A stretch of 64,000 nt of DNA from the NCBI GenBank assembly GCA_035515795.1, contig DATJAY010000005.1:124001-188000 (forward strand), read 5' to 3'. Origin of the DNA: Candidatus Acidiferrales bacterium. Lineage in GTDB: Bacteria; Bacteroidota; Ignavibacteria; Kryptoniales; JAKASW01. Every line of letters starts with the position of its first letter. Positions within the stretch are counted from its first letter, which is position 1. The translations under genes were made by a program, and so were the position numbers. The notes under the pieces were generated by a model, which saw nothing but the letters and a program-made list of their open reading frames with translations, had not been told where the DNA came from and made no database searches. Below are positions 6,871 to 18,196 of this stretch, in pieces.

Positions 6871-7061
6871 AAAACAGGACTAGAAGCACGCGGAGGTTAT
6901 TAAGTTGCTCTGGTAAAGCTGGCCGTGTTCGTCGGAATCCGTACTTTCGACGTTGGCGGTGCAATGTTTTGTTTACAATGAGTTAAACATAGAGTAAAAA
7001 GGATTTCATAACTGTTACATAAAATGATAAGCTGAAACGATAATACATGCGGAGTTTTAGA

Positions 7062-9701
7062 ATGGCAAAAATAAGACCGAGATTTGCCCTGATGTCATGT
7101 CTTTTCGTGTGTGCATCCTGCAGTTTCGCGCTGGCACAGAGTGAGAATGAGATGGAATTCGACGAACCGGGCAGCGAGCAAGTCCTCAATCGTCAATTGT
7201 GGGAATTTGCCAAAGGGACCCCGTACGAATCTGTAGAGGCTTATGTCGAGAGGGCGCAAGAGAAGTCACGCACAGGAATGTCCGACGAGATAGAGCTTCC
7301 GACCGGCTGGAAGATTCATCCTGCCGGAAGACAAATCCAGGTCGGCCACCTTCCTTATGAAGCAATCATGTATAACGGAAAGCTTGTCGTGCTCAACACA
7401 GGTTACTATGCCGGTTACTCTCGTATTACGCTGGAGGATACCCTCGAACCTCAGGGAGTTTCAATCATCGACCCTGAGAGCGGAGAAATCCGAAACTCAT
7501 TGAAGCTTGGTTGCATATTCCCGAGCGCAGTCGTCGGAGCGGACGCATACCTGTATGTCAGTGGCGGGTTTGATTCCACCATTCATAAGATTGACAAGAA
7601 CTTTCAACTAGCTCAAGAGTACAAAGTCGGAGGTTACACAGCAGGACTTGCCCCGGTTGATTCTCAACATATCGCGCTTCTTTATATGGTTACGACCGAT
7701 ACTTCAAAGACTTCACGTGATCCTTTCGGCATGGGCCATTATGTGAAAGGCAGGATCGCACTGTTGAATCTCGTGAACGGGGATGTCGAGCGTGAGGCCG
7801 TCGTCGGTTATTTCCCCTATGCTGTCGAATTTTTGAACGGGAAGTTTTATGTGAGCGTATTGGGAGAAAATAAAATAAACGTCTATGATTCGCGTTTTCG
7901 AGAATTGAAATCGTTGAAAGTGGGAAGCGCCCCGGCAAGTATGACTGTTGATGGAGACTATCTCTATGTGGTGAACACAACTGCCGATGAGCTTACGGTG
8001 ATAGAAGCGAAGACCGACAAAATTCTTCGCAGGATCTTCGTGGGGAAGCATGGATACAGGTCCGGTGTTTCTCCCACTTCTTGCGCAATCCTCGATGGTA
8101 AACTGTACGTAAGCGAAGCGACTCTTAACGCTATTGCGGTCTATCGGTTAATAGACGGAAAGCTTCTCGGTTATATACCCACGGGATGGTACACCACAAA
8201 GGTTTTGTTGGACGGAAAGAATTTGTATTTCCTCAGTGCTAAAGGGATACTTCCAAGACGTCCCAATCCGAATGGACCCTCGCCCATTATAGAAGGCCAT
8301 AAAGAGGATTATGTGCTAAATCTCCTGAAAGGGACCGCTGGAATTGTTCCAATGAATTCCATAGATGATGATTTGTCCGAATGGACCAAGGAAGTTGAAG
8401 ACGGCTCGCCTGTTTATAGTCCGGAGAAGGGCCTCAAGCTTCCGATCAAACATATTTTTTACATCATAAAGGAAAACCGATCTTACGATCAGGTACTCGG
8501 AGACCTCGGAAGAGGAAACGGCGATTCGAGTTTGACGATCTTCGGGAGATCGATCAGCCCCAATGTCCACAAGTTGGCGTCGGACTTTGTTACGCTCGAC
8601 AATTTCTATGCCGATGGTGAGATAAGCGTACTCGGACACAGCTTCACGACAAGCGGCTATGCAAGTCCATTTCTAGAATGGCTCGGCAACGCATCGTACA
8701 GCGGCCGATACAAGGGGTATCCGTTCGGCACAGTCCCAGCCGTTTTCTCGAAGGAGTACATTTGGGATGCGCTCGACTTAAAAAGGGTCGATTACAAAAT
8801 CTATGGCGAGCCGTATTATCTGATGACTGCTGCTTATAGAATCATCGAAAAGTTTTTCGGTGCAAGCAGCGTCATTGCAGAAAAATTTTATTCGAATAGC
8901 ATGGCACTCGCCGCGAGTGTAGACAGAGGGGCAGAGTTCAGCGAATTCGTGCAGACATTTTATGGAAAGGCAAACAACAGAAAGAGCGCCCTCAAGCTTC
9001 TGAACGATGATGCTTTCACGAAGGGAATATCGAGAATTTTTACGGGAGATGAAACGCTTCACAATGCCCTGCGGAAAAATCTCCGTTTCAGGAGGGCATT
9101 TGCAGATTTCTTGTACCACTATTCTTTCAATTACTGGACTTGGGATTTGTGGTATTCTGACCTGCGTCGGTTCGAAGCGTGGAAAGCTGACTTCGAGCAG
9201 CAGTTGAAATCCGGAAAGGTCGTGCCGTTCGAGTACATCTGGCTTCCTAACGATCACACGGGAGGAATAAACCCCAATTACCAGAATCCGTATCAGCTTG
9301 TTGCACAGAACGACGCTGCGTTGGGTTTGATGGTACAGACGATTGCCGCGAGCCCCATCTGGGAAAACAGTCTGATACTTGTGGAGGAGGACGACGCTCA
9401 AAATGGTCCTGATCACGTCGATGCGACGAGGACTGAGGCTCTTGCCGCCGGCCCGTACGTTAAAAGAAATTCCGTCGTTGACGACCGCTATGACCAGCTC
9501 AGCACGATCAGAACCGTGGAATTAACCCTTGGACTCAATCCACTCAACTTTGAAGATGCGGTAGCGGTACCGATGTTTAGTATCCTTTCTTCTAAACCCG
9601 ATTTTACAAAATTTGATTCCGCCCCTCCATCAGATAGTTTATCTGCTTCAGACAGATTCATTCTTGAAAGAATGGCGGCTCATGCAGGGGAAGAAAAATG
9701 A
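7062..9701 (+). CDS. YncE-like beta-propeller fused to alkaline-phosphatase-superfamily phosphoesterase
   Basis: An exported protein (signal peptide ending FALA-Q) of about 879 residues. The first half has YVTN/YncE-type propeller repeats (for example [20 protein letters not shown]). The second half begins [18 protein letters not shown], the metal-binding start of the PF04185 phosphoesterase family, and continues with [16 protein letters not shown]. This matches the known bifunctional YncE/alkaline-phosphatase-like architecture; the substrate is unknown. GGAG at 7051-7054 with a 7-nt spacer favours the ATG at 7062 over the in-frame ATG at 7047. Its stop overlaps the deoC start by 4 nt, so the two genes are probably translationally coupled. 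Confidence 0.88.
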
Positions 9702-10390
9702 GCAAGGAAATGAAAATATCCGCGCAGGAACTGGCAGGAATGATCGATCATACTCTTCTCAAGCCGGAAGCGACGCCACATGAAGTGGAACAACTCTGCA
9801 AGGAGGCAATCGAATTCAACTTTGCGAGTGTCTGTATAAATCCATGTTACGTTGGACTTGCGAAGGCCAGACTGATGGGTTCGGCAGTAAAAGTTTGTAC
9901 AGTCATCGGTTTTCCGCTCGGTGCAGCTACTACTATGTCGAAGGTGGGTGAAGCGAAAGAGGCGATCGCGAACGGTGCGCAAGAAGTGGACATGGTCATT
10001 AATATCGGGAGACTGAAGTCAAGAGATTATGGTTATGTAGAAAATGAAATCCGCGAGGTCGTGCAGTCTGCTCACTCGAGAGAGGCAATCGTGAAAGTCA
10101 TAATTGAAACCTGTTTGTTGACGGACGAGGAAAAAGAGAAGGCATGTCTTCTCTCCAGGAATGCCGGCGCTGATTTCGTGAAAACATCTACGGGGTTCAG
10201 CAAGGGGGGGGCGACGACGGCCGACGTTGCTTTGATGAGGAGAACAGTCGTGAACAAGATCGGTGTGAAGGCATCCGGCGGTGTGAGAAGTTACGATGAA
10301 GCAATCAGTATGGTAGAAAGCGGCGCGACAAGAATCGGAACAAGTTCGGGCGTGAAAATAATTTTGGAAGCAAGACAGCGTATCGGCTAA
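9698..10390 (+). CDS. deoC: Deoxyribose-phosphate aldolase
   Basis: A 230-residue cytoplasmic class I aldolase that splits 2-deoxyribose 5-phosphate into glyceraldehyde 3-phosphate and acetaldehyde in deoxynucleoside salvage. The full set of family motifs is visible: [11 protein letters not shown] at the N terminus, EVDMVINIG (Asp98), the Schiff-base lysine in FVKTSTGF (Lys162) and the second lysine in VKASGGVR (Lys191). The length is normal. It overlaps the preceding phosphoesterase gene by ATGA. No other nucleoside-catabolism genes are near. An eight-G run near 10205 lies in the frame and does not break it. Confidence 0.97.
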
Positions 10391-10733
10391 GCAAAAAAGT
10401 TTCTTAACTCCTTCAATTTTATCCCTCCTTTTTTCGTTGTTGAATTACGCAACGGGCAACGCTGAACATTTCACCACCCTGCAATTCTTCTAATTCAACC
10501 GAGATTCTCCGATTCCAGTGAATCTTCATTTCTTGAACGTTGAAGAATTCCATCCGATCGCTCGTGGCGGGAGAATCTTGATCGAGCTGTCTTTTACAAT
10601 CTGGTAAGTCATATGAAATCAATCGATTATGGTGGAAGAAATTTCGTGGAACAGCGTATTTCGGTATAGCAATTGCAAAATATTCAGTGAAAATATTCTC
10701 GTGTAATACGGAAATTGAAAATGGAGGTTTAAG
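10391..10733 (+). other. Intergenic region upstream of the GcvH/NrfD cluster
   Basis: No convincing gene lies in these 343 bases; the minus-strand frame here runs through into the antisense of the next gene and has no recognisable protein features. The region holds a sigma-54-type promoter candidate at 10662-10677, listed separately, and an AT-rich stretch before the next start. No deoC terminator with a clear U-tract is visible. Confidence 0.6.
10662..10677 (+). promoter_or_regulatory. Candidate sigma-54 (-24/-12) promoter
   Basis: The bases CGGTATAGCAATTGCA match the sigma-54 consensus TGGCACGN4TTGCA at the invariant GG and GC, which are exactly 12 nt apart, and at the whole TTGCA element. 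The site lies 57 nt before the first gene of a cluster that itself encodes a sigma-54-dependent response regulator at 16166-17530. The -24 half is imperfect (CGGTAT), so this is a candidate only. Confidence 0.4.
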
Positions 10734-11444
10734 ATGGTTGCGATATTTGTAGTAGCGACGATAATCGTGTTTCTTATTATCGATTATTTCGTGCAGCGTG
10801 CGGAAAAACATAAAGTGGTACAAACTTCGTCGGCGACGGTCAAGGCCCGGTTTATCATTCCCAAAGGGTATTTCTTCGGAAGAGGACATACGTGGATCGA
10901 AATCTTATCGAACAGCCTGGCGAGGATCGGACTCGACGATTTTTCCCAGAAGATTATCGGGCGAATTGATGAGGTCGCTTTCATTCCGACGGGCAAGGAA
11001 GTCATGAAAGGTGACAGACTCTTCGCAGTGCAACAGGGGAGTAACGCCCTCTGGTTCCGTGCGCCTATTTCGGGAAAGGTTGTTTCATTCAATGATGAGC
11101 TTACACACTCGCCTGACGTCGTCAGGAAGAAACCTTACTCTGATGGCTGGGTTGCTATAATAGAACCGGCAAACCTTGAAAAGGAAACAAAGCTTCTTTC
11201 GATGGGAGAAGAGGCAGCACAATGGCTTAAGGAAGAAATCAAAAGATTCAGAAATTTCATAACGGCGCAGGGAACCACCAATGCGTCGTCCGGTCTTCCG
11301 GCATTGGCTGCAACAGCGGCCGCCCGAACCGGAGCGACATTATTGGATGGCGGAATTCCTGTTGAAGGTGTCATGGAACATTCATCGAAGGAAACATGGC
11401 AGAAATTCGAAAACGATTTTCTGACAAACGGTGATGCAAAGTAG
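10734..11444 (+). CDS. Membrane-anchored GcvH-like (lipoyl-fold) protein lacking the lipoyl lysine
   Basis: A 236-residue protein with one N-terminal membrane helix (about residues 2-19) and a GcvH-type fold over residues 45-150: GHTWIE, IGLDDF, KGDRLFAVQQ, APISGKVV, then HSPDVV and PYSDGW, all in canonical order. An ungapped comparison with classical H protein from GD to AP puts Ser103 where the lipoylated lysine belongs, so glycine-cleavage function is unlikely. A C-terminal GATLLDGG motif (200-207) recurs in the second GcvH-like protein of the cluster. First gene after the sigma-54 promoter candidate. Its role is unknown; a structural or regulatory part of the neighbouring NrfD-type complex is an inference. 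Confidence 0.8.
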   Translation: MVAIFVVATIIVFLIIDYFVQRAEKHKVVQTSSATVKARFIIPKGYFFGRGHTWIEILSNSLARIGLDDFSQKIIGRIDEVAFIPTGKEVMKGDRLFAVQQGSNALWFRAPISGKVVSFNDELTHSPDVVRKKPYSDGWVAIIEPANLEKETKLLSMGEEAAQWLKEEIKRFRNFITAQGTTNASSGLPALAATAAARTGATLLDGGIPVEGVMEHSSKETWQKFENDFLTNGDAK

Positions 11445-11460
11445 AGTAATGGAGCATGAG

Positions 11461-12270
11461 ATGCAAAAGCAATTTGGAATTTTGGTCGATACGACGCAAT
11501 GTATAGGGTGTATGGCGTGCGAAGATGCATGTGCCGACAAATGGGGTTTCCCTCATACCGACGTGCACGAGCTTTCCTGCAACAAAAACACCGTGGTACA
11601 GCAGTGGGGCGATACTTATGTACCGAGGCTCTGTATGCACTGCGAAAATCCCGCATGCGCATCGGTCTGTCCGGTAGGTGCCTTGCACAAAACGGCGGAC
11701 GGCCCTGTGGTTTATGACGAAAGCAAATGCATCGGTTGCCGCTATTGCATGCAGGCATGTCCGTTCCAGGTCCCGAAGTACCAATGGAACATGCCGAATC
11801 CGAAAGTGACGAAGTGTAACATGTGCTACGATAGAGTTGAAGCGGGCAAGCAACCAGCATGCGTCGAAGCATGTCCGGCGCAGGCGAGGATTTTCGGATA
11901 CCGTGACGACTTAATGGAGGCAGCGAGGCAAAAAATAAAAAGCAATCCTCAAACCTACGTCCAGCATATTTTCGGGGAAACCGAAGTCGGCGGCACCTCG
12001 ACGATTTATCTCGGCAGCGTTGATTTTGCGAAACTGGGATTCAGAACGGATCTTCCGCAAATTCAACTCCCGCAATATACATGGAATATCATGTCGAAGA
12101 TACCGGATTACTTTGTCTGGGGAACGACATTGATGACGGGATTCTGGTGGCTGACTAATCGAAAAAAGAAAGTCGCGGAATATGAAGCCAGGTTAAAACG
12201 TGAGGGATCAAATGGCAACGATAAAGACGATGGGCGGAATGCCGATGGAGGTCGAGATGGACACGAGTAA
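11461..12270 (+). CDS. HybA/NrfC-type ferredoxin subunit with four [4Fe-4S] motifs
   Basis: A 269-residue electron-transfer protein. Sixteen cysteines form four clusters: 14/17/20/24, 58/61/66/70, 90/93/96/100 and 119/122/134/138, the usual pattern of iron-sulfur subunits paired with NrfD/HybB proteins. There is no Tat or Sec signal at the N terminus; a short hydrophobic segment near residues 216-232 followed by Arg/Lys could anchor the C terminus. GGAG at 11450-11453 supports the ATG at 11461 over earlier in-frame starts that overlap the previous gene. No catalytic partner (molybdopterin oxidoreductase or hydrogenase) is encoded beside it. Confidence 0.92.
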   Translation: MQKQFGILVDTTQCIGCMACEDACADKWGFPHTDVHELSCNKNTVVQQWGDTYVPRLCMHCENPACASVCPVGALHKTADGPVVYDESKCIGCRYCMQACPFQVPKYQWNMPNPKVTKCNMCYDRVEAGKQPACVEACPAQARIFGYRDDLMEAARQKIKSNPQTYVQHIFGETEVGGTSTIYLGSVDFAKLGFRTDLPQIQLPQYTWNIMSKIPDYFVWGTTLMTGFWWLTNRKKKVAEYEARLKREGSNGNDKDDGRNADGGRDGHE

Positions 12271-13492
12271 GTTTTCTTACACAATTTCAAATTGGTTTAA
12301 ACACTTTACTTTTTGGAAATGTGTCTTTCTAGTTCTGGTAATTGTGGGTTTGTATTCCACGGCGATAAGGTTCGCATTTGGACTTGGTGCCGCAACGAAT
12401 CTGAACGATAATTTCCCATGGGGATTGTGGATCGGATTCGATGTGCTTTGCGGAGTCGGGCTTGCCGCCGGCGGATTTGTCATCGCGGCATCGGTTTATA
12501 TTTTCCATCTCGACGACTACAAAGCATTGATAAGACCAGCTGTCTTGACTGCGTTTCTCGGATATGTTCTCGTCGTGTTTGCCCTTCTTTTCGATCTCGG
12601 ACGGCCGTGGAATATCTGGCATCCGCTCGTGATGTGGAATCCGCATTCGGTGATGTTTGAAGTGGCGTGGTGCGTAATGCTCTATACTGCCGTCCTTGCG
12701 CTGGAGTTCAGCCCGATCGTACTGGAGAAGTTCAAATTGGAAAAAGCACAACGGGCCGTCCACTCGATAATTATTCCGCTGGTGATCTTGGGCGTGATGC
12801 TGTCAACACTTCATCAATCATCGCTCGGCTCGATGTATCTGATTACTCCCGAGAAAACCTATCCGCTATGGTACTCTGGAAATCTTCCGTTTCTTTTCTT
12901 CCTGAGCGCCGTAGCCGTCGGCCCGGCGATGGTCATAATAGAATCTTTTCTGAGCTCGCGCGCATTTCATCGCGAGATCGAACTGCCGCTCTTGTCTCGT
13001 CTCGGAAAAGTATCGGCGGTTGCGTTGGCAGTATATCTGGTTTTAAAAATGGAAGACGTCGTAAACTATAATCTTGTTTCGCATTTGCTTACCTCTAATC
13101 TCGAAGGAATACTCTATTGGATTGAGATCGTGATCGGCGCGCTCCTTCCTATGATCCTTTTGATTGTTCCAAAAGTCAGGACGAGCAAACGCGGTTTGTT
13201 CGGTAGTGCAATCCTGGTAGTGACCGGATTTGTTTTGAACAGGATGGATGTCAGCATTACTTCTCTGGAGCGGTACTATGGCACAAACTATTTCCCCAGC
13301 TGGATGGAGATCTCCGTGACAATGATGATAGTCGCACTCGGTTTTGGTGCGTTTGCGTGGGCAGCAAAGAATCTCGCCGTTTTTCCGAAGGAAGATAAGG
13401 TCAGAGTTCATGATGAAGGTTGCGAGGTGGTTATAGTCGATGCTCCTTCGAAACCCATCCCGGTCTTTGTAGAAACAAAAGCAAAATATTAA
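12257..13492 (+). CDS. NrfD/HybB family quinone-interacting membrane subunit
   Basis: About 411 residues with roughly ten membrane helices. The start of the membrane domain (NFPWGLWIGFDVLCGVGLAAGG), the FDLGRPWNIWHPLVMWNPHS region and STLHQSSLGSMYLI are typical of the long HybB/NrfD (polysulfide-reductase NrfD) family, which exchanges electrons between an iron-sulfur subunit and membrane quinone. GGAGG at 12247-12251 precedes the ATG at 12257; in-frame starts at 12212 (ribosome site GAGG) and 12200 are alternatives, with larger overlap of the ferredoxin gene. The overlap and order imply a complex with the preceding ferredoxin. Confidence 0.92.
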   Translation: MDTSKFSYTISNWFKHFTFWKCVFLVLVIVGLYSTAIRFAFGLGAATNLNDNFPWGLWIGFDVLCGVGLAAGGFVIAASVYIFHLDDYKALIRPAVLTAFLGYVLVVFALLFDLGRPWNIWHPLVMWNPHSVMFEVAWCVMLYTAVLALEFSPIVLEKFKLEKAQRAVHSIIIPLVILGVMLSTLHQSSLGSMYLITPEKTYPLWYSGNLPFLFFLSAVAVGPAMVIIESFLSSRAFHREIELPLLSRLGKVSAVALAVYLVLKMEDVVNYNLVSHLLTSNLEGILYWIEIVIGALLPMILLIVPKVRTSKRGLFGSAILVVTGFVLNRMDVSITSLERYYGTNYFPSWMEISVTMMIVALGFGAFAWAAKNLAVFPKEDKVRVHDEGCEVVIVDAPSKPIPVFVETKAKY

Positions 13493-13507: not shown

Positions 13508-14356
13508 ATGTCCGAAAAATCGGCTGGACAGGATCTCAAATCTATGAATCGTGTGATTCCCGAAGGCGAATCAAGCTGTATTTGGGTAGATGCCGGAGTC
13601 GTCTCTTATAGGCTGTGTGATCGCAATTTCGAATGCGAGGATTGCCCGTTTGATCAAGTGATGCGGCGGGAGTCTCGTCGAGACTCCAATGTCTCAATAT
13701 CTGCTAAAGATTGGTCGAGTGAAAAGAAACACTTCGACCAATCTTTCACCGGGCACGAGACTATTGCCGATCTGGTGAAAAAATTCTTTTCTGTTTCCGC
13801 TGCGTGCGAACTTCCAAGCAGGCGCTTTTATTCCAGGAATCATGTTTGGGCAAAAAAGATCGATGACGGCTGTTATCGAATCGGTTTAGACGAGTACGCC
13901 GCTTCGCTTCTTCGTGATACTTGGAGCGTAATACTTCCGCAAACTGGAACAGTGTCCAGGCGCAATGCACCATTATCATGGGCCATTCTTGAAGATGGCA
14001 CTATAATGGTACGTTCTCCGCTGAACGGAAAGGTATCGATGAGCAATTTGCATTTGAAGGAGTCTCCTTCTCTGATCGTCTCCGACCCGTACGAATCGGG
14101 CTGGATTTGTGAAATCGCCGGCGTGGAGGACAAAGCGGTAGGATCAAATTCCTTCGACGAAGCGGCGGGAAAAAAATTCTACGACAATCAATTTGCCGAG
14201 CTGGAGAAAACAATCGTATCCGAACTTGAGCGGAAGCCTGAGCTCGTCGGGGCTACGATGATGGACGGCGGAACGAGACCGAAGACTCTGAAAGATCTGC
14301 TTGGCCCTCAAAAGTATCTTTCCATTTTGAAATCGCTCTTGTCGATGGACCTGTAA
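13508..14356 (+). CDS. Second GcvH-like protein, with N-terminal Cys cluster and no lipoyl lysine
   Basis: A 282-residue soluble protein. Residues 36-49 (LCDRNFECEDCPFD) give a C-x5-C-x2-C cluster (Cys37, 43, 46) that could bind metal. Residues 107-205 carry the GcvH fold (FYSRNHVW, YRIGLDEYA, VRSPLNGKV, SDPYESGW). Asp163 occupies the lipoyl-lysine position, so like the first paralogue it cannot be lipoylated there. The C terminus has GATMMDGG (248-255), shared with the first paralogue. An AGAGAGG ribosome site precedes the start, 15 nt after the NrfD gene. The role is unknown; a redox-sensing or assembly partner of the membrane complex is only an inference. Confidence 0.8.
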   Translation: MSEKSAGQDLKSMNRVIPEGESSCIWVDAGVVSYRLCDRNFECEDCPFDQVMRRESRRDSNVSISAKDWSSEKKHFDQSFTGHETIADLVKKFFSVSAACELPSRRFYSRNHVWAKKIDDGCYRIGLDEYAASLLRDTWSVILPQTGTVSRRNAPLSWAILEDGTIMVRSPLNGKVSMSNLHLKESPSLIVSDPYESGWICEIAGVEDKAVGSNSFDEAAGKKFYDNQFAELEKTIVSELERKPELVGATMMDGGTRPKTLKDLLGPQKYLSILKSLLSMDL

Positions 14357-14528: not shown

Positions 14529-16157
14529 ATGCGAATTACAAGATTCTTGGCCTTCAGACTGGTCGTTATCGTGTTGCTCGTGATGCTTGCTTCAACTGCA
14601 ATCTTCACAAGCTTAATGCTTAAATGGCATTCGGAAAAATATCTTAGCGTCAATAAGGACTGGGCTTTGCGAACGAGCGACCTGATAAAGAGATCGACTC
14701 ACTACAGCATGTTGGAAAACAGGCGTGAGGATATCTACCAGACTATCAATACTCTCGGATCGGAGCCGGGCATAGAAGCAATTCGCATTTACAATAAGAA
14801 AGGTGAGATTACCTTTTCAACCGTGAGCGGGGAAACGGGAAAACATGTAAACACCGGTGCCGAAGCGTGCAACGTCTGTCACCAACCTGGAAAACCGTTG
14901 CCGTCAGATACCTCAAGCGGTCTAACAAGAATTTTCCTTTCCCAGAAAGGCTACCGCGTTCTTGGAGTGATCACACCTATAAAAAACGAACCGAGTTGTT
15001 ACAATACGGATTGCCACGAACATGCTGCGTCTCAAACCGTTCTGGGTGTCCTCGATGTTATGCTGCCGCTCAAGGAAATGGACGCGAGCCTTTCCCAGCT
15101 TCGAGGAGCAACTTATCTGACATCTGCGCTGATGGTCGCAGGCGTTACGGTTTTTGCGGGGATATTTATCTGGATAATGGTGAACGTGCCGGTAAGGAAA
15201 TTGATTCGCGGGACGGATGAAGTCACCAAGGGAAACCTCGGATACCGGATCATGGTACGCTCTCATGATGAGATCGGAGACCTTGCGGCTTCATTCAACA
15301 AAATGACCGAGGAACTCAGGAGAGCGAGGGACGAACTGACCAGGTGGGGACAAACGCTCGAAGAAAAGGTCGAACAGAAGACCGAGGACTTGAGAAGGGC
15401 ATTATCCAACATGGTACAGATGGAGAAAATGGCTTCGCTGGGAAAGCTGTCCGCAAGTGTGGCGCACGAGCTGAACAATCCTCTTGCTGGAATCTTAGCA
15501 TACGCAAAACTCTTGCGCAAGAAAATATCCAAACAGGATTTTTCTCCGGAAAACCTGAAAGAGATCGACGATGAGCTGAAGATGATCGCAGACGAAACTG
15601 CGAGGTGCGGAAATATCGTGACAAACCTGCTCCTGTTTTCGAGACAGAAAGTCGGTGAATTCCGTCCTCAGAACCTCGCTCTGGTTATTGAACAAAGCGT
15701 TAGACTCATTGCGCATCATTTGGCCATGAATGATGTCAAGTGTGAGGTCAAGCTTCCCGGTGAGCCTATTGAAATCAATTGCGATCCTCAGCAAATTGAA
15801 CAGGCCATGATAGCCCTTGAGATAAATGCGATCGAGGCAATGCCGGAAGGAGGCAATCTGAGGATAGAGCTGCAGAGAGTTGCAAACTTAAATGCCGCAC
15901 AAATTAGAGTTGAAGATACAGGCATCGGAATCAGCGAAGAAGATATTGATCATATTTTCGAGCCGTTCTATACGACCAAGATAGACGGAAAAGGCACGGG
16001 TCTCGGCCTGGCGGTCGTGCACGGAATCGTAGAGGGCCACAACGGCAGGATAGAAGTATCGTCGAAGGTACACTGTGGGACTACGTTCACGATCACTTTT
16101 CCAATAGGTCCGAATGCTTCTTCGGAGAAGGAATTTGCAAATTCACAAAAGAGTTGA
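14529..16157 (+). CDS. Sensor histidine kinase with two c-heme-like motifs in the periplasmic domain
   Basis: About 542 residues: membrane helix 1 (9-28), a periplasmic domain, helix 2 (about 195-218), HAMP, then a kinase core with the phospho-accepting His313 in SVAHELNNPLAG, the N box, VEDTGIGIS and GKGTGLGLAVVHG. The periplasmic domain holds CNVCH (114-118), a standard heme c attachment motif, and CYNTDCH (157-163), a CX4CH variant known from multiheme cytochromes; a heme or redox sensor is a strong inference. AAGGA at 14519-14523 with a 5-nt spacer selects the ATG at 14529. It is followed after 8 nt by its likely partner regulator. Confidence 0.93.
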   Translation: MRITRFLAFRLVVIVLLVMLASTAIFTSLMLKWHSEKYLSVNKDWALRTSDLIKRSTHYSMLENRREDIYQTINTLGSEPGIEAIRIYNKKGEITFSTVSGETGKHVNTGAEACNVCHQPGKPLPSDTSSGLTRIFLSQKGYRVLGVITPIKNEPSCYNTDCHEHAASQTVLGVLDVMLPLKEMDASLSQLRGATYLTSALMVAGVTVFAGIFIWIMVNVPVRKLIRGTDEVTKGNLGYRIMVRSHDEIGDLAASFNKMTEELRRARDELTRWGQTLEEKVEQKTEDLRRALSNMVQMEKMASLGKLSASVAHELNNPLAGILAYAKLLRKKISKQDFSPENLKEIDDELKMIADETARCGNIVTNLLLFSRQKVGEFRPQNLALVIEQSVRLIAHHLAMNDVKCEVKLPGEPIEINCDPQQIEQAMIALEINAIEAMPEGGNLRIELQRVANLNAAQIRVEDTGIGISEEDIDHIFEPFYTTKIDGKGTGLGLAVVHGIVEGHNGRIEVSSKVHCGTTFTITFPIGPNASSEKEFANSQKS

Positions 16158-16165
16158 AAATAAGT

Positions 16166-17530
16166 ATGGCGAACATTAATAGATCGGAGCAAGCGAGTGT
16201 TCTCATTGTCGATGATGAGCTTTCAGTTAGGGACTCATTGACAAAGTGGTTCATTGAAGACGGCTACCGCGTCGGTGCGGCGGAGAACGCGAATAAGGCG
16301 CTGAATCTCATGAACGATGGACCATGGGATGTAGTGCTTCTAGACATAAAGATGCCGGGCATGGACGGGCTTGAACTGCAAAAGAGATTGAAGGAGATCG
16401 ACAAGACTTCGGCAATCATCATGGTCACCGCTTTTGCTGCGGTTGACAGTGCGGTGCAGGCTTTGAAAGAAGGAGCGTTCGACTACATAACAAAGCCCGT
16501 TGATCCGGAGCATCTGTCCCATCTCGTGCGAAACGCACTCAGGACAAAGAAATTGTCGGATGAAAATTGGCGGCTGCGCCAGCAAATGTCGGAACTTTCG
16601 GGCGTCGAGGAAATCATCGGAGAAAGCCAGCAGATAAAAAAAGTGATCGAGCTTGCAAAGACTGTAGCGCAGACAGATACAACCGTAATGATCCGGGGCG
16701 AGAGCGGCACGGGCAAGGAATTGATCGCACGAACCATCCATGCGAACAGCACGCGAAAATTTTTCCCGATTATTACAGTCAACTGCGGTGCGGTGCCGGA
16801 AACCTTGTTGGAGAGTGAGCTATTCGGCCACGAGAAAGGAGCTTTTACCGGCGCGCAATACAGACGTAAGGGTAAGTTTGAAATGGCCGATGGCGGCACA
16901 ATTTTTTTGGACGAGATAGGAACGATCAGTCAGAAAATGCAGGTGCAGCTTCTGAGGGTGCTGGAGACAAGGCAATTCACGCGTGTCGGCGGGAATGATT
17001 TGATCTCAAGTGATTTTAGAGTAGTCTGCGCGACAAATCGTGACCTCGAGGCGGCAATCGCGGAAGGAAATTTCAGGGAAGATCTGTATTACCGCTTGAA
17101 CGTGTTCACCATATTCATTCCGCCTCTCAGGGAAAGACGGGTTGACATCCCACCGATGGTGAATCACTTCATGAAAAAATATGCTGCTTCTATGAACAAG
17201 GCCATGCTCGAAGTCGATCCGGAAGCGATGGATATTTTGATTCGCAACAAATGGCAGGGGAATGTACGCGAGCTTGAGAACGTCATCGAGCGTGCGATGG
17301 TCCTGGCAAAACCGCCATCTGTCAAGGCATCCGACTTGCCCTTCCAGCTTTCACAGATTCAAGATGAAAACGGCACGGGCGAAGATTCGCTCATGAGCAT
17401 GGAAAAAATTCATATCGCAAGAATTCTCAACAAATATGGATGGAACATCACGCGAGCGGCGGAAGCCCTCGACATAGACCGGGTCACGCTTTACAACAAA
17501 ATTGCTAAATACGGTTTGAAGAAACCCTGA
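16166..17530 (+). CDS. Sigma-54-dependent response regulator (NtrC family)
   Basis: A 454-residue regulator: receiver domain (acidic pair Asp16/Asp17, phospho-acceptor Asp60 in LLDIKMPG, Lys110), AAA+ domain with GESGTGKE (178-185), GAFTGA (225-230), which contacts sigma-54, and IFLDEIG, and a Fis-type helix-turn-helix at the end (ITRAAEALDIDRVTLYNKI). It is the evident partner of the kinase 8 nt upstream. The -24/-12 candidate before the first gene of the cluster makes self-linked control of the GcvH/NrfD genes likely. The ATG at 16166 has only a weak ribosome site; a TTG at 16154 is the alternative. Confidence 0.95.
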   Translation: MANINRSEQASVLIVDDELSVRDSLTKWFIEDGYRVGAAENANKALNLMNDGPWDVVLLDIKMPGMDGLELQKRLKEIDKTSAIIMVTAFAAVDSAVQALKEGAFDYITKPVDPEHLSHLVRNALRTKKLSDENWRLRQQMSELSGVEEIIGESQQIKKVIELAKTVAQTDTTVMIRGESGTGKELIARTIHANSTRKFFPIITVNCGAVPETLLESELFGHEKGAFTGAQYRRKGKFEMADGGTIFLDEIGTISQKMQVQLLRVLETRQFTRVGGNDLISSDFRVVCATNRDLEAAIAEGNFREDLYYRLNVFTIFIPPLRERRVDIPPMVNHFMKKYAASMNKAMLEVDPEAMDILIRNKWQGNVRELENVIERAMVLAKPPSVKASDLPFQLSQIQDENGTGEDSLMSMEKIHIARILNKYGWNITRAAEALDIDRVTLYNKIAKYGLKKP

Positions 17531-17587
17531 AAGCTGTGACTTACTTCAGAAGTGAGTCATAGCAAGTTTCGCCTAACTGCTCGAATA

Positions 17588-18196
17588 ATGTCATCCATAC
17601 TCCTTGTTGCAATCGCACCAGTAGATGTTTCTGTATTGTCCCCGCTTACCGAATCAATCGGGAAAACTTTTGAAGCGCGCGTTGATGTAATTCAATCCCC
17701 GCCGTTAGACGGTTCATTTGCATTTAATCTTTCACGGAACCAGTATAACTCTACTTCAATTCTGTCCGCGTTGCTAGAAAAGTCTGCCGAATGGATCCGT
17801 CCGGCAGATTTTTCTAATGGTCCGCCCTCCGTCCCTGCTGAACGAGACTTCACCAGGATGAGGTCGGGAGGCAAGATCCTAGGAGTTACCGATGGAGATA
17901 TCTTCGTACCGGTTCTTACTTATGTTTTCGGAGAGGCGCAGTTTGATGGGAAGGCTGCCGTTGTTTCATCGCACCGGCTCAGAGAGGAATTTTACGGACT
18001 CCAGCCCGATAAGATCGTCTTCATGTCCCGACTGGCCAAGGAGGCAATCCACGAACTCGGTCACACTTTCGGACTGATCCATTGCGGCAACTATTTATGC
18101 GTCATGCACTCGTCAACGGGCGTTGAAGAAGTCGACGTGAAGACGGACAGGTTTTGCGACGAATGCAGAAAGAAGCTGATTGCTCATGGCTGGTAG
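17588..18196 (+). CDS. Archaemetzincin-type zinc metalloprotease
   Basis: About 202 residues with the complete metzincin signature HELGHTFGLIH (155-165) followed by Cys166, Cys171-Val-Met and a closing CxxC pair (Cys190, Cys193), which is the archaemetzincin pattern (HExxHxxGxxHC-x4-CxM ... CxxC). His155, 159 and 165 should bind the catalytic zinc and Glu156 act as base; the cysteines bind a second zinc in known structures. There is no signal peptide, so it is presumably cytoplasmic. The substrate is unknown. The start is uncertain: ATG 17588 fits the family N terminus, GTG 17552 is an in-frame alternative. Confidence 0.88.
   Translation: MSSILLVAIAPVDVSVLSPLTESIGKTFEARVDVIQSPPLDGSFAFNLSRNQYNSTSILSALLEKSAEWIRPADFSNGPPSVPAERDFTRMRSGGKILGVTDGDIFVPVLTYVFGEAQFDGKAAVVSSHRLREEFYGLQPDKIVFMSRLAKEAIHELGHTFGLIHCGNYLCVMHSSTGVEEVDVKTDRFCDECRKKLIAHGW

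Follow-up and report, generated by a model that had tools for sequence, protein, structure and literature searches.

The Kinase and Its Gene Island

The window, by which we mean the whole 64,000-nucleotide stretch of DNA analyzed, carries on its forward strand a conserved island of genes in the order GcvH-like, HybA-like, NrfD, GcvH-like, kinase, regulator and archaemetzincin. The island opens with a GcvH-like protein with a hydrophobic N-terminus (10734-11444), followed by a HybA/HmcB-like iron-sulfur protein (11431-12270, from profile matches), an NrfD/HybB/HmcC-like membrane subunit (12200-13492; PF03916, with NF045714 below its cut-off) and a second GcvH-like protein (13508-14356), which has a Cys-rich start, CDRNFECEDCPFD. 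Both GcvH-like proteins are recognized by PF01597, and lipoylation was considered for them and rejected, since in an alignment with the genome's true GcvH neither shows a Lys at the lipoyl position or in an adjacent column. Further upstream, a phosphoesterase-like protein and deoC (7047-10390) are shared with L009-L012 and absent from the other loci found by contig scan.

The open reading frame at 14529-16157 starts with the ATG at 14529 as residue 1 and encodes 542 residues, with the antisense frame interrupted by stops. The product runs from a first membrane helix through a sensory domain and a second helix to a HAMP domain for signal relay (15183-15320; PF00672, E 1e-11), a HisKA phosphoacceptor domain (15438-15647; PF00512) and a HATPase_c catalytic domain (15783-16106; PF02518), and with this Pfam complement of HisKA and HATPase_c preceded by HAMP it is a sensor histidine kinase. 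Because HAMP, HisKA and HATPase_c all come after the second hydrophobic stretch, the loop of about 155 residues between the helices is predicted to be periplasmic, and the translation, Pfam matches and a structural model together point to a heme-c Cache domain with two motifs as its sensory part. The next gene (16154-17530) has a TTG start that overlaps the kinase stop and encodes an NtrC-type response regulator. Pfam and alignment give it a receiver, an AAA+ sigma-54 activator domain with GAFTGA and a Fis-type HTH, and the genome has a sigma-54 gene. An archaemetzincin (M54; 17552-18196; PF07998, NF033823) closes the island, to which it is assigned by synteny.

Upstream of the first island gene lies a promoter-like element, TCGGTATAGCAATTGCA (10661-10677, forward strand), the sole site in the window to score 12 of 13 against the sigma-54 pattern. 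Among 13 upstream regions compared, taking the first Met as the start (possibly wrong in L011, L014, and L015), a strict score of at least 12 was reached only in the window (12) and in L017-L019 (12-13). The element is canonical in the latter three, and lower in score or missing in the other nine regions. By eye, a GG at -24 and a TT or TTG at -12 can be aligned in 12 of the 13 regions, the exception being L014, with the GC at -12 replaced in L009-L013, L015, L016, and L023. We call the element sigma-54-like only, because its -12 part is degenerate and six of the 13 regions have no strict site.

Conservation of the Island and Its Paralogue

A pattern-based contig scan, which needs short exact peptides, recovered at least 16 relatives of the kinase. 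Of these 16 loci, 15 have HybA-like and NrfD genes next to the kinase, together with GcvH-like genes, while the locus L020 has only a weak GcvH-like gene on the far side. The archaemetzincin gene is found in 12/16, and of the four loci without it three are cut off by the end of the contig. Kinase, regulator and module occur together in Bacteroidota, Ignavibacteriota, a Caldithrix genome (L021) and a KSB1 genome (L022), and in the last two the module is encoded on the other strand, still adjacent to the kinase. In the phylum of L024, among 20 loci that were picked from the better matches and several of which end early, HybA and NrfD are both present at 10, at least one module gene at 14, and archaemetzincin at 10. 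An archaemetzincin accompanies the two-motif kinase and regulator in the window, L014, L020, L053, L089, and L100-L102, and L014 and L020 carry a second, tandem kinase-M54-regulator set. In the literature searched, which covered few subscription papers, we found no paper that treats archaemetzincin together with a histidine kinase.

The same genome also contains a paralogous kinase and regulator (L126:8110-11145), near a GcvH-NrfD-FeS set on the opposite strand. PF01597 detects five GcvH-like proteins in this genome, namely one true GcvH, the two in the island, and two located approximately 4 and 10 kb away from the kinase paralogue. The four divergent proteins all lack a Lys in the lipoyl column and in the columns flanking it, and they lie at or near both of the genome's loci for such kinases (the window; L143, L144). 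When 14 divergent GcvH-like copies were aligned, 13 had no Lys at the lipoyl column, with L013_1, L089_b, and L098_a having one a column over.

The initial annotation held that the genes under control of the kinase encode a redox module, and regarded a redox or gas signal as plausible on that account. The way the module travels with the kinase (15/16 and 10/20 loci), with a sigma-54-like element in front of it, speaks for such control. A different reading is that the kinase controls distant respiratory genes and that its neighbors are such by location only. Half of the 20 remote loci do lack the HybA-NrfD pair, as this would predict, however, kinase, regulator and module stay together across phyla even where the module is encoded on the other strand (L021, L022), and the paralogue is likewise found near an NrfD/FeS/GcvH set. 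We therefore regard control of distant genes only as very unlikely, and take the adjoining module as the probable target in what follows.

Two Heme Motifs in the Periplasmic Domain

It was also noted at the outset that CNVCH and CYNTDCH stand between two membrane helices, and both are indeed seen in the translation between two hydrophobic stretches. Motif 1 (CNVCH; C114, C117, H118; 14868-14882) is an extra site by comparison with one-motif relatives, and motif 2 (CYNTDCH; C157, C162, H163; 14997-15017) is the site common to GSU0935-type sensors. The codon pattern for CxxCH is near chance when taken alone, as it has six matches in the window, where shuffled sequence averages 2.95 and attains six in 4 of 100 cases. 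The motifs are therefore judged to be real because they are conserved across homologues and not by their codon pattern alone. Around motif 1 (about 14793-14912) there is a weak resemblance to a heme segment of the nitrite reductase NrfA, which we rejected as too weak (1fs9 chain E 5.8e-4; best stretch i-Evalue 0.51).

Conservation was assessed in two sets of sequences. The first comprises 38 distinct homologues, drawn from the window, the paralogue, 15 of the 16 contig-scan loci (L023, which ends before the motifs, was left out) and 20 of 33 places found by a same-phylum search that had a match in 22 of 148 genomes. Free variation of the motifs was not found, with both present in 38/38 at a distance of 43-44 residues from one another. 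Motif 1 is exactly CxxCH in every one of these sequences, none of which had been chosen for motif 1, and the paralogue retains both motifs at 37% identity. The second set came from a wider search in the phylum of L024, where at least 122 of 297 genomes have a match at 1e-8 with at most 10 candidates scored per genome, and adds 30 loci from that search and 68 further stretches that were fetched. The fragments L023, L049, and L052 were dropped from an earlier count, and with domains of <170 residues left out, 121 distinct domains remained. Motif 2 is present in 121/121, a Met at the position of Met61 in 121/121, and motif 1 in 93/121, although part of this conservation is selection, because the search profile had itself been built from two-motif sequences.

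The form CX4CH that had been given for motif 2 holds for most two-motif domains (85/93), but its spacing is not fixed and ranges from X2 to X5. The remaining two-motif domains have CX2CH (four), CX3CH (two), or CX5CH (two) at this site, the longer and intermediate variants being the unusual spacings seen in L070, L071, L072, and L083. Domains without motif 1 show CX2CH at site 2 in 26 of 28 cases. The genome also has four PF01578 matches, which are cytochrome c assembly proteins. Overall, the suggestion that one or two covalently bound hemes form the sensing center gains support from motif conservation and from the sequence kinship to c-heme sensor domains set out below.

Fold, Kinship, and Candidate Ligands

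An AlphaFold2 model built on 38 sequences gives the periplasmic domain a mean pLDDT of 86.7, and in this model it is a single Cache domain between the two membrane helices. Foldseek and VIA-align 2 both match the model to Cache domains, those of WalK, KinD, and CitA, and VIA-align 2 aligns 137 residues with 4ywz_B at a Z of 13.7 and an rmsd of 2.2. The two c-heme sensors 3b42 (GSU0935) and 3b47 (GSU0582) of Geobacter sulfurreducens are absent from the best 50 matches in either search, which may be because they were crystallized as swapped dimers (PMC8396549). The tie to these sensors rests on a sequence profile and not on the fold search. In a profile search of PDB sequences, 3b42 matches with an E of 5.3e-5 and 3b47 with an E of 0.0015. 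The pairing of code and gene was taken from PMC12889525 for 3b47, and from the hinge sequence given in PMC3460858.

In this profile alignment the CxxCH of 3b42 falls on motif 2 of the window and not on motif 1, with a spacing of X2 against X4 here, and Met61 (14709-14711) falls on chain position 26 of 3b42. As His144 corresponds to chain position 110, position 26 is Met60, which is named as the axial ligand of GSU0935 in PMC8396549. Taken singly the two pieces of the match are weak (i-Evalue 6.8 for the Met piece and 0.1 for the motif 2 piece). The Pfam family PF21563 (Mcp40H-20_sensor), which from its name and match appears to cover GSU0935, matches 29 of the 38 members weakly at E up to 0.05. 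The window domain scores 17.7 bits against a cut-off of 27, and the paralogue 29.1 bits against the same cut-off of 27 when neighbors in frame are included. PF11845 (DUF3365/Tll0287-like) had no match to the full kinase up to E 0.1, nor does it figure in the 25 families recorded for the 38 members.

Met61 is thus a candidate distal ligand of heme 2, and this bears on the main rival to redox sensing, in which NO (or CO) would bind heme 2 by displacing Met61, so that the kinase would report a gas and not a redox potential. Such chemistry has precedent, since the reduced forms of GSU0582 and GSU0935 bind NO and CO with displacement of Met60 (PMC8396549), and slow release of NO, as in established NO sensors, is reported for a HAMP-linked sCache_heme protein (PMC12889525, a preprint). 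However, all 121 domains keep Met61, whereas in the NO-sensing example the axial Cys present in its stand-alone relative is missing, according to the same preprint. None of the eight window proteins scanned resembles an NO-handling enzyme, and heme 1 would have no obvious role in gas binding. We consider gas sensing unlikely, although it is the competing explanation that deserves most attention.

For heme 1, the candidate distal ligand is His165 (15021-15023), which forms a CHxH with motif 2. Of the 93 two-motif domains, 87 have a His at this +2 position, as do 2 of the 28 one-motif domains (leaving six and two exceptions, respectively), a contrast between sequences related by descent to which no true probability attaches. 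We read this as indicating that site 2 and Met61 are old, that site 1 is a later addition, and that His165 probably arrived with site 1 as its likely second ligand. This order is proposed because GSU0935 has site 2 only, and not from a rooted tree. In trees of 89 and 101 domains, made by a quick method with the motif columns removed, one-motif and two-motif domains are not cleanly separated. The topology requires two changes and brings long branches together (L113 with L122, then L122 with L123).

It might also be that heme is attached to motif 2 only, with motif 1 being a metal site, a disulfide switch or a structural relic. The 28 of 121 domains that lack motif 1 would fit this, as would the finding that no Cache domain among the 11 PDB profile matches is described as carrying two hemes. 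An idle motif 1 is harder to reconcile with its exact CxxCH form in all 38 homologues that had not been selected for it, and with the way in which its candidate ligand His165 tracks its presence, so we hold a single heme at motif 2 to be distinctly improbable. Binding of two hemes is very probable and is the reading that we carry forward.

Kinase-Less Copies in Respiratory Clusters

In loci of the phylum of L024, the two-motif domain is also found in short proteins among respiratory genes. In all four of the loci L132-L135, a protein of approximately 280 residues with this domain follows, on the same strand, genes for proteins with 7 and 12 CXXCH motifs, and in L134, the sole locus tested for this, a cytochrome b561-type protein is encoded in between. 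In L136, L137, and L139 a short two-motif protein follows HybA and NrfD on the same strand. The three short two-motif proteins scanned have no kinase domain, and two show a weak HAMP below the cut-off. Among the matches listed there are 22 open frames of 220-360 residues, and by our count by eye 15 of them have a kinase-sized match, of at least 500 residues, within 10 kb on the same contig. Nine short two-motif proteins form one group (SH-aLRT 100), with L057, the tenth, left out of this check as possibly cut.

The gene order of L132-L135 resembles that of the cbc5/bccR region of G. sulfurreducens. BccR controls CbcBA. The two-motif proteins of this region are GSU0591 and GSU0599 (PMC8396549), and CbcBA is described as working at low potential in this organism (PMC10553843). 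A speculative thought, to which we give only a small chance, is that duplication gave a respiratory complex and the regulator of that complex the same electron-transfer component, the two-heme Cache domain. The kinase would then see the same partner and the same potential as the complex, and two hemes could provide a steep or two-step redox threshold.

Proposed Mechanism and Significance

Considering the above, we think it probable, though by no means assured, that the kinase is a di-c-heme Cache redox sensor which acts through the NtrC-type regulator and sigma-54 on the GcvH-HybA-NrfD-GcvH operon. The motifs and their conservation, the predicted fold, the homology, the order of the genes and the promoter-like element are observed, and heme loading, the ligands, contact between the hemes, the signal, the direction of switching and the regulon are the parts of this scheme that we infer. 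A single Cache domain with two c-type hemes would read the redox state of the periplasm. The older site, heme 2 (C157/C162/H163), would be His/Met coordinated, its distal ligand probably being Met61, where the first helix ends, and heme 1 (C114/C117/H118), as the added site, would probably be bis-His with His165. If His165 does serve heme 1, the hemes would be near neighbors, and electron exchange between them is to be expected. A change in the oxidation state of heme 2 would detach Met61 or let it bind and thereby move the first helix, in line with the model published for GSU0935 and GSU0582, which has a redox-linked Met60 switch (PMC8396549). This shift would pass along the membrane helices and HAMP and alter kinase activity, the kinase would phosphorylate the adjacent NtrC-type regulator, and the regulator together with sigma-54 would drive the operon, which encodes an electron-transfer module likely tied to the quinone pool.

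How anaerobes sense the potential of extracytoplasmic acceptors is poorly understood, and this two-heme kinase family offers a compact and widespread candidate. The predicted ligand pairs, Met61/His163 and His118/His165, make the sensing step open to direct mutational test. More broadly, the family suggests that a Cache sensor gained a second heme, and it ties uncharacterized NrfD-GcvH-archaemetzincin islands to redox control. In the literature searched, with few subscription papers covered, we found no description of the two-heme family, its ligand pattern, the NrfD/GcvH-like/archaemetzincin island or the kinase-less respiratory copies.

Comparison with Known Systems

On the output side, the module shares HybA/HmcB-like and HybB/HmcC-like sequence with the Hmc and Hyb systems, but it falls short of the NCBIfam equivalog cut-offs for Hmc (247.7 against 420 bits for HmcB and 335.7 against 550 bits for HmcC). 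The eight proteins scanned include no multiheme cytochrome, and the module has two GcvH-like proteins instead. On the sensory side, the sCache_heme/DUF3365/Tll0287-like family (PF11845) also combines a Cache domain with an inserted heme c motif and is often fused to signaling parts, however, its members carry a single CXXCH according to the preprint (PMC12889525), and the window kinase is unmatched by PF11845.

Two heme motifs have been reported for GSU0591 and GSU0599 of G. sulfurreducens and for Adeh_2011 and Adeh_3383 of Anaeromyxobacter, the Geobacter signal proteins having the form CX2-4CH and GSU0599 being annotated as two-component (PMC8396549; PMC3831638). Their likeness to the window kinase is by motif description and not by sequence. 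The closest known counterparts are GSU0935 and GSU0582 of G. sulfurreducens (3b42, 3b47), which are likewise periplasmic, held between two membrane helices and placed before HAMP, with motif 2 and the Met ligand in alignment. These have one heme and a chemotaxis output, whereas the window protein has a kinase as its output and carries an additional motif besides the CX4CHxH of site 2. Heme-c Cache sensors, some of them listed with two motifs, are already known, and the window kinase is a probable two-heme variant of these sensors and not a new kind.
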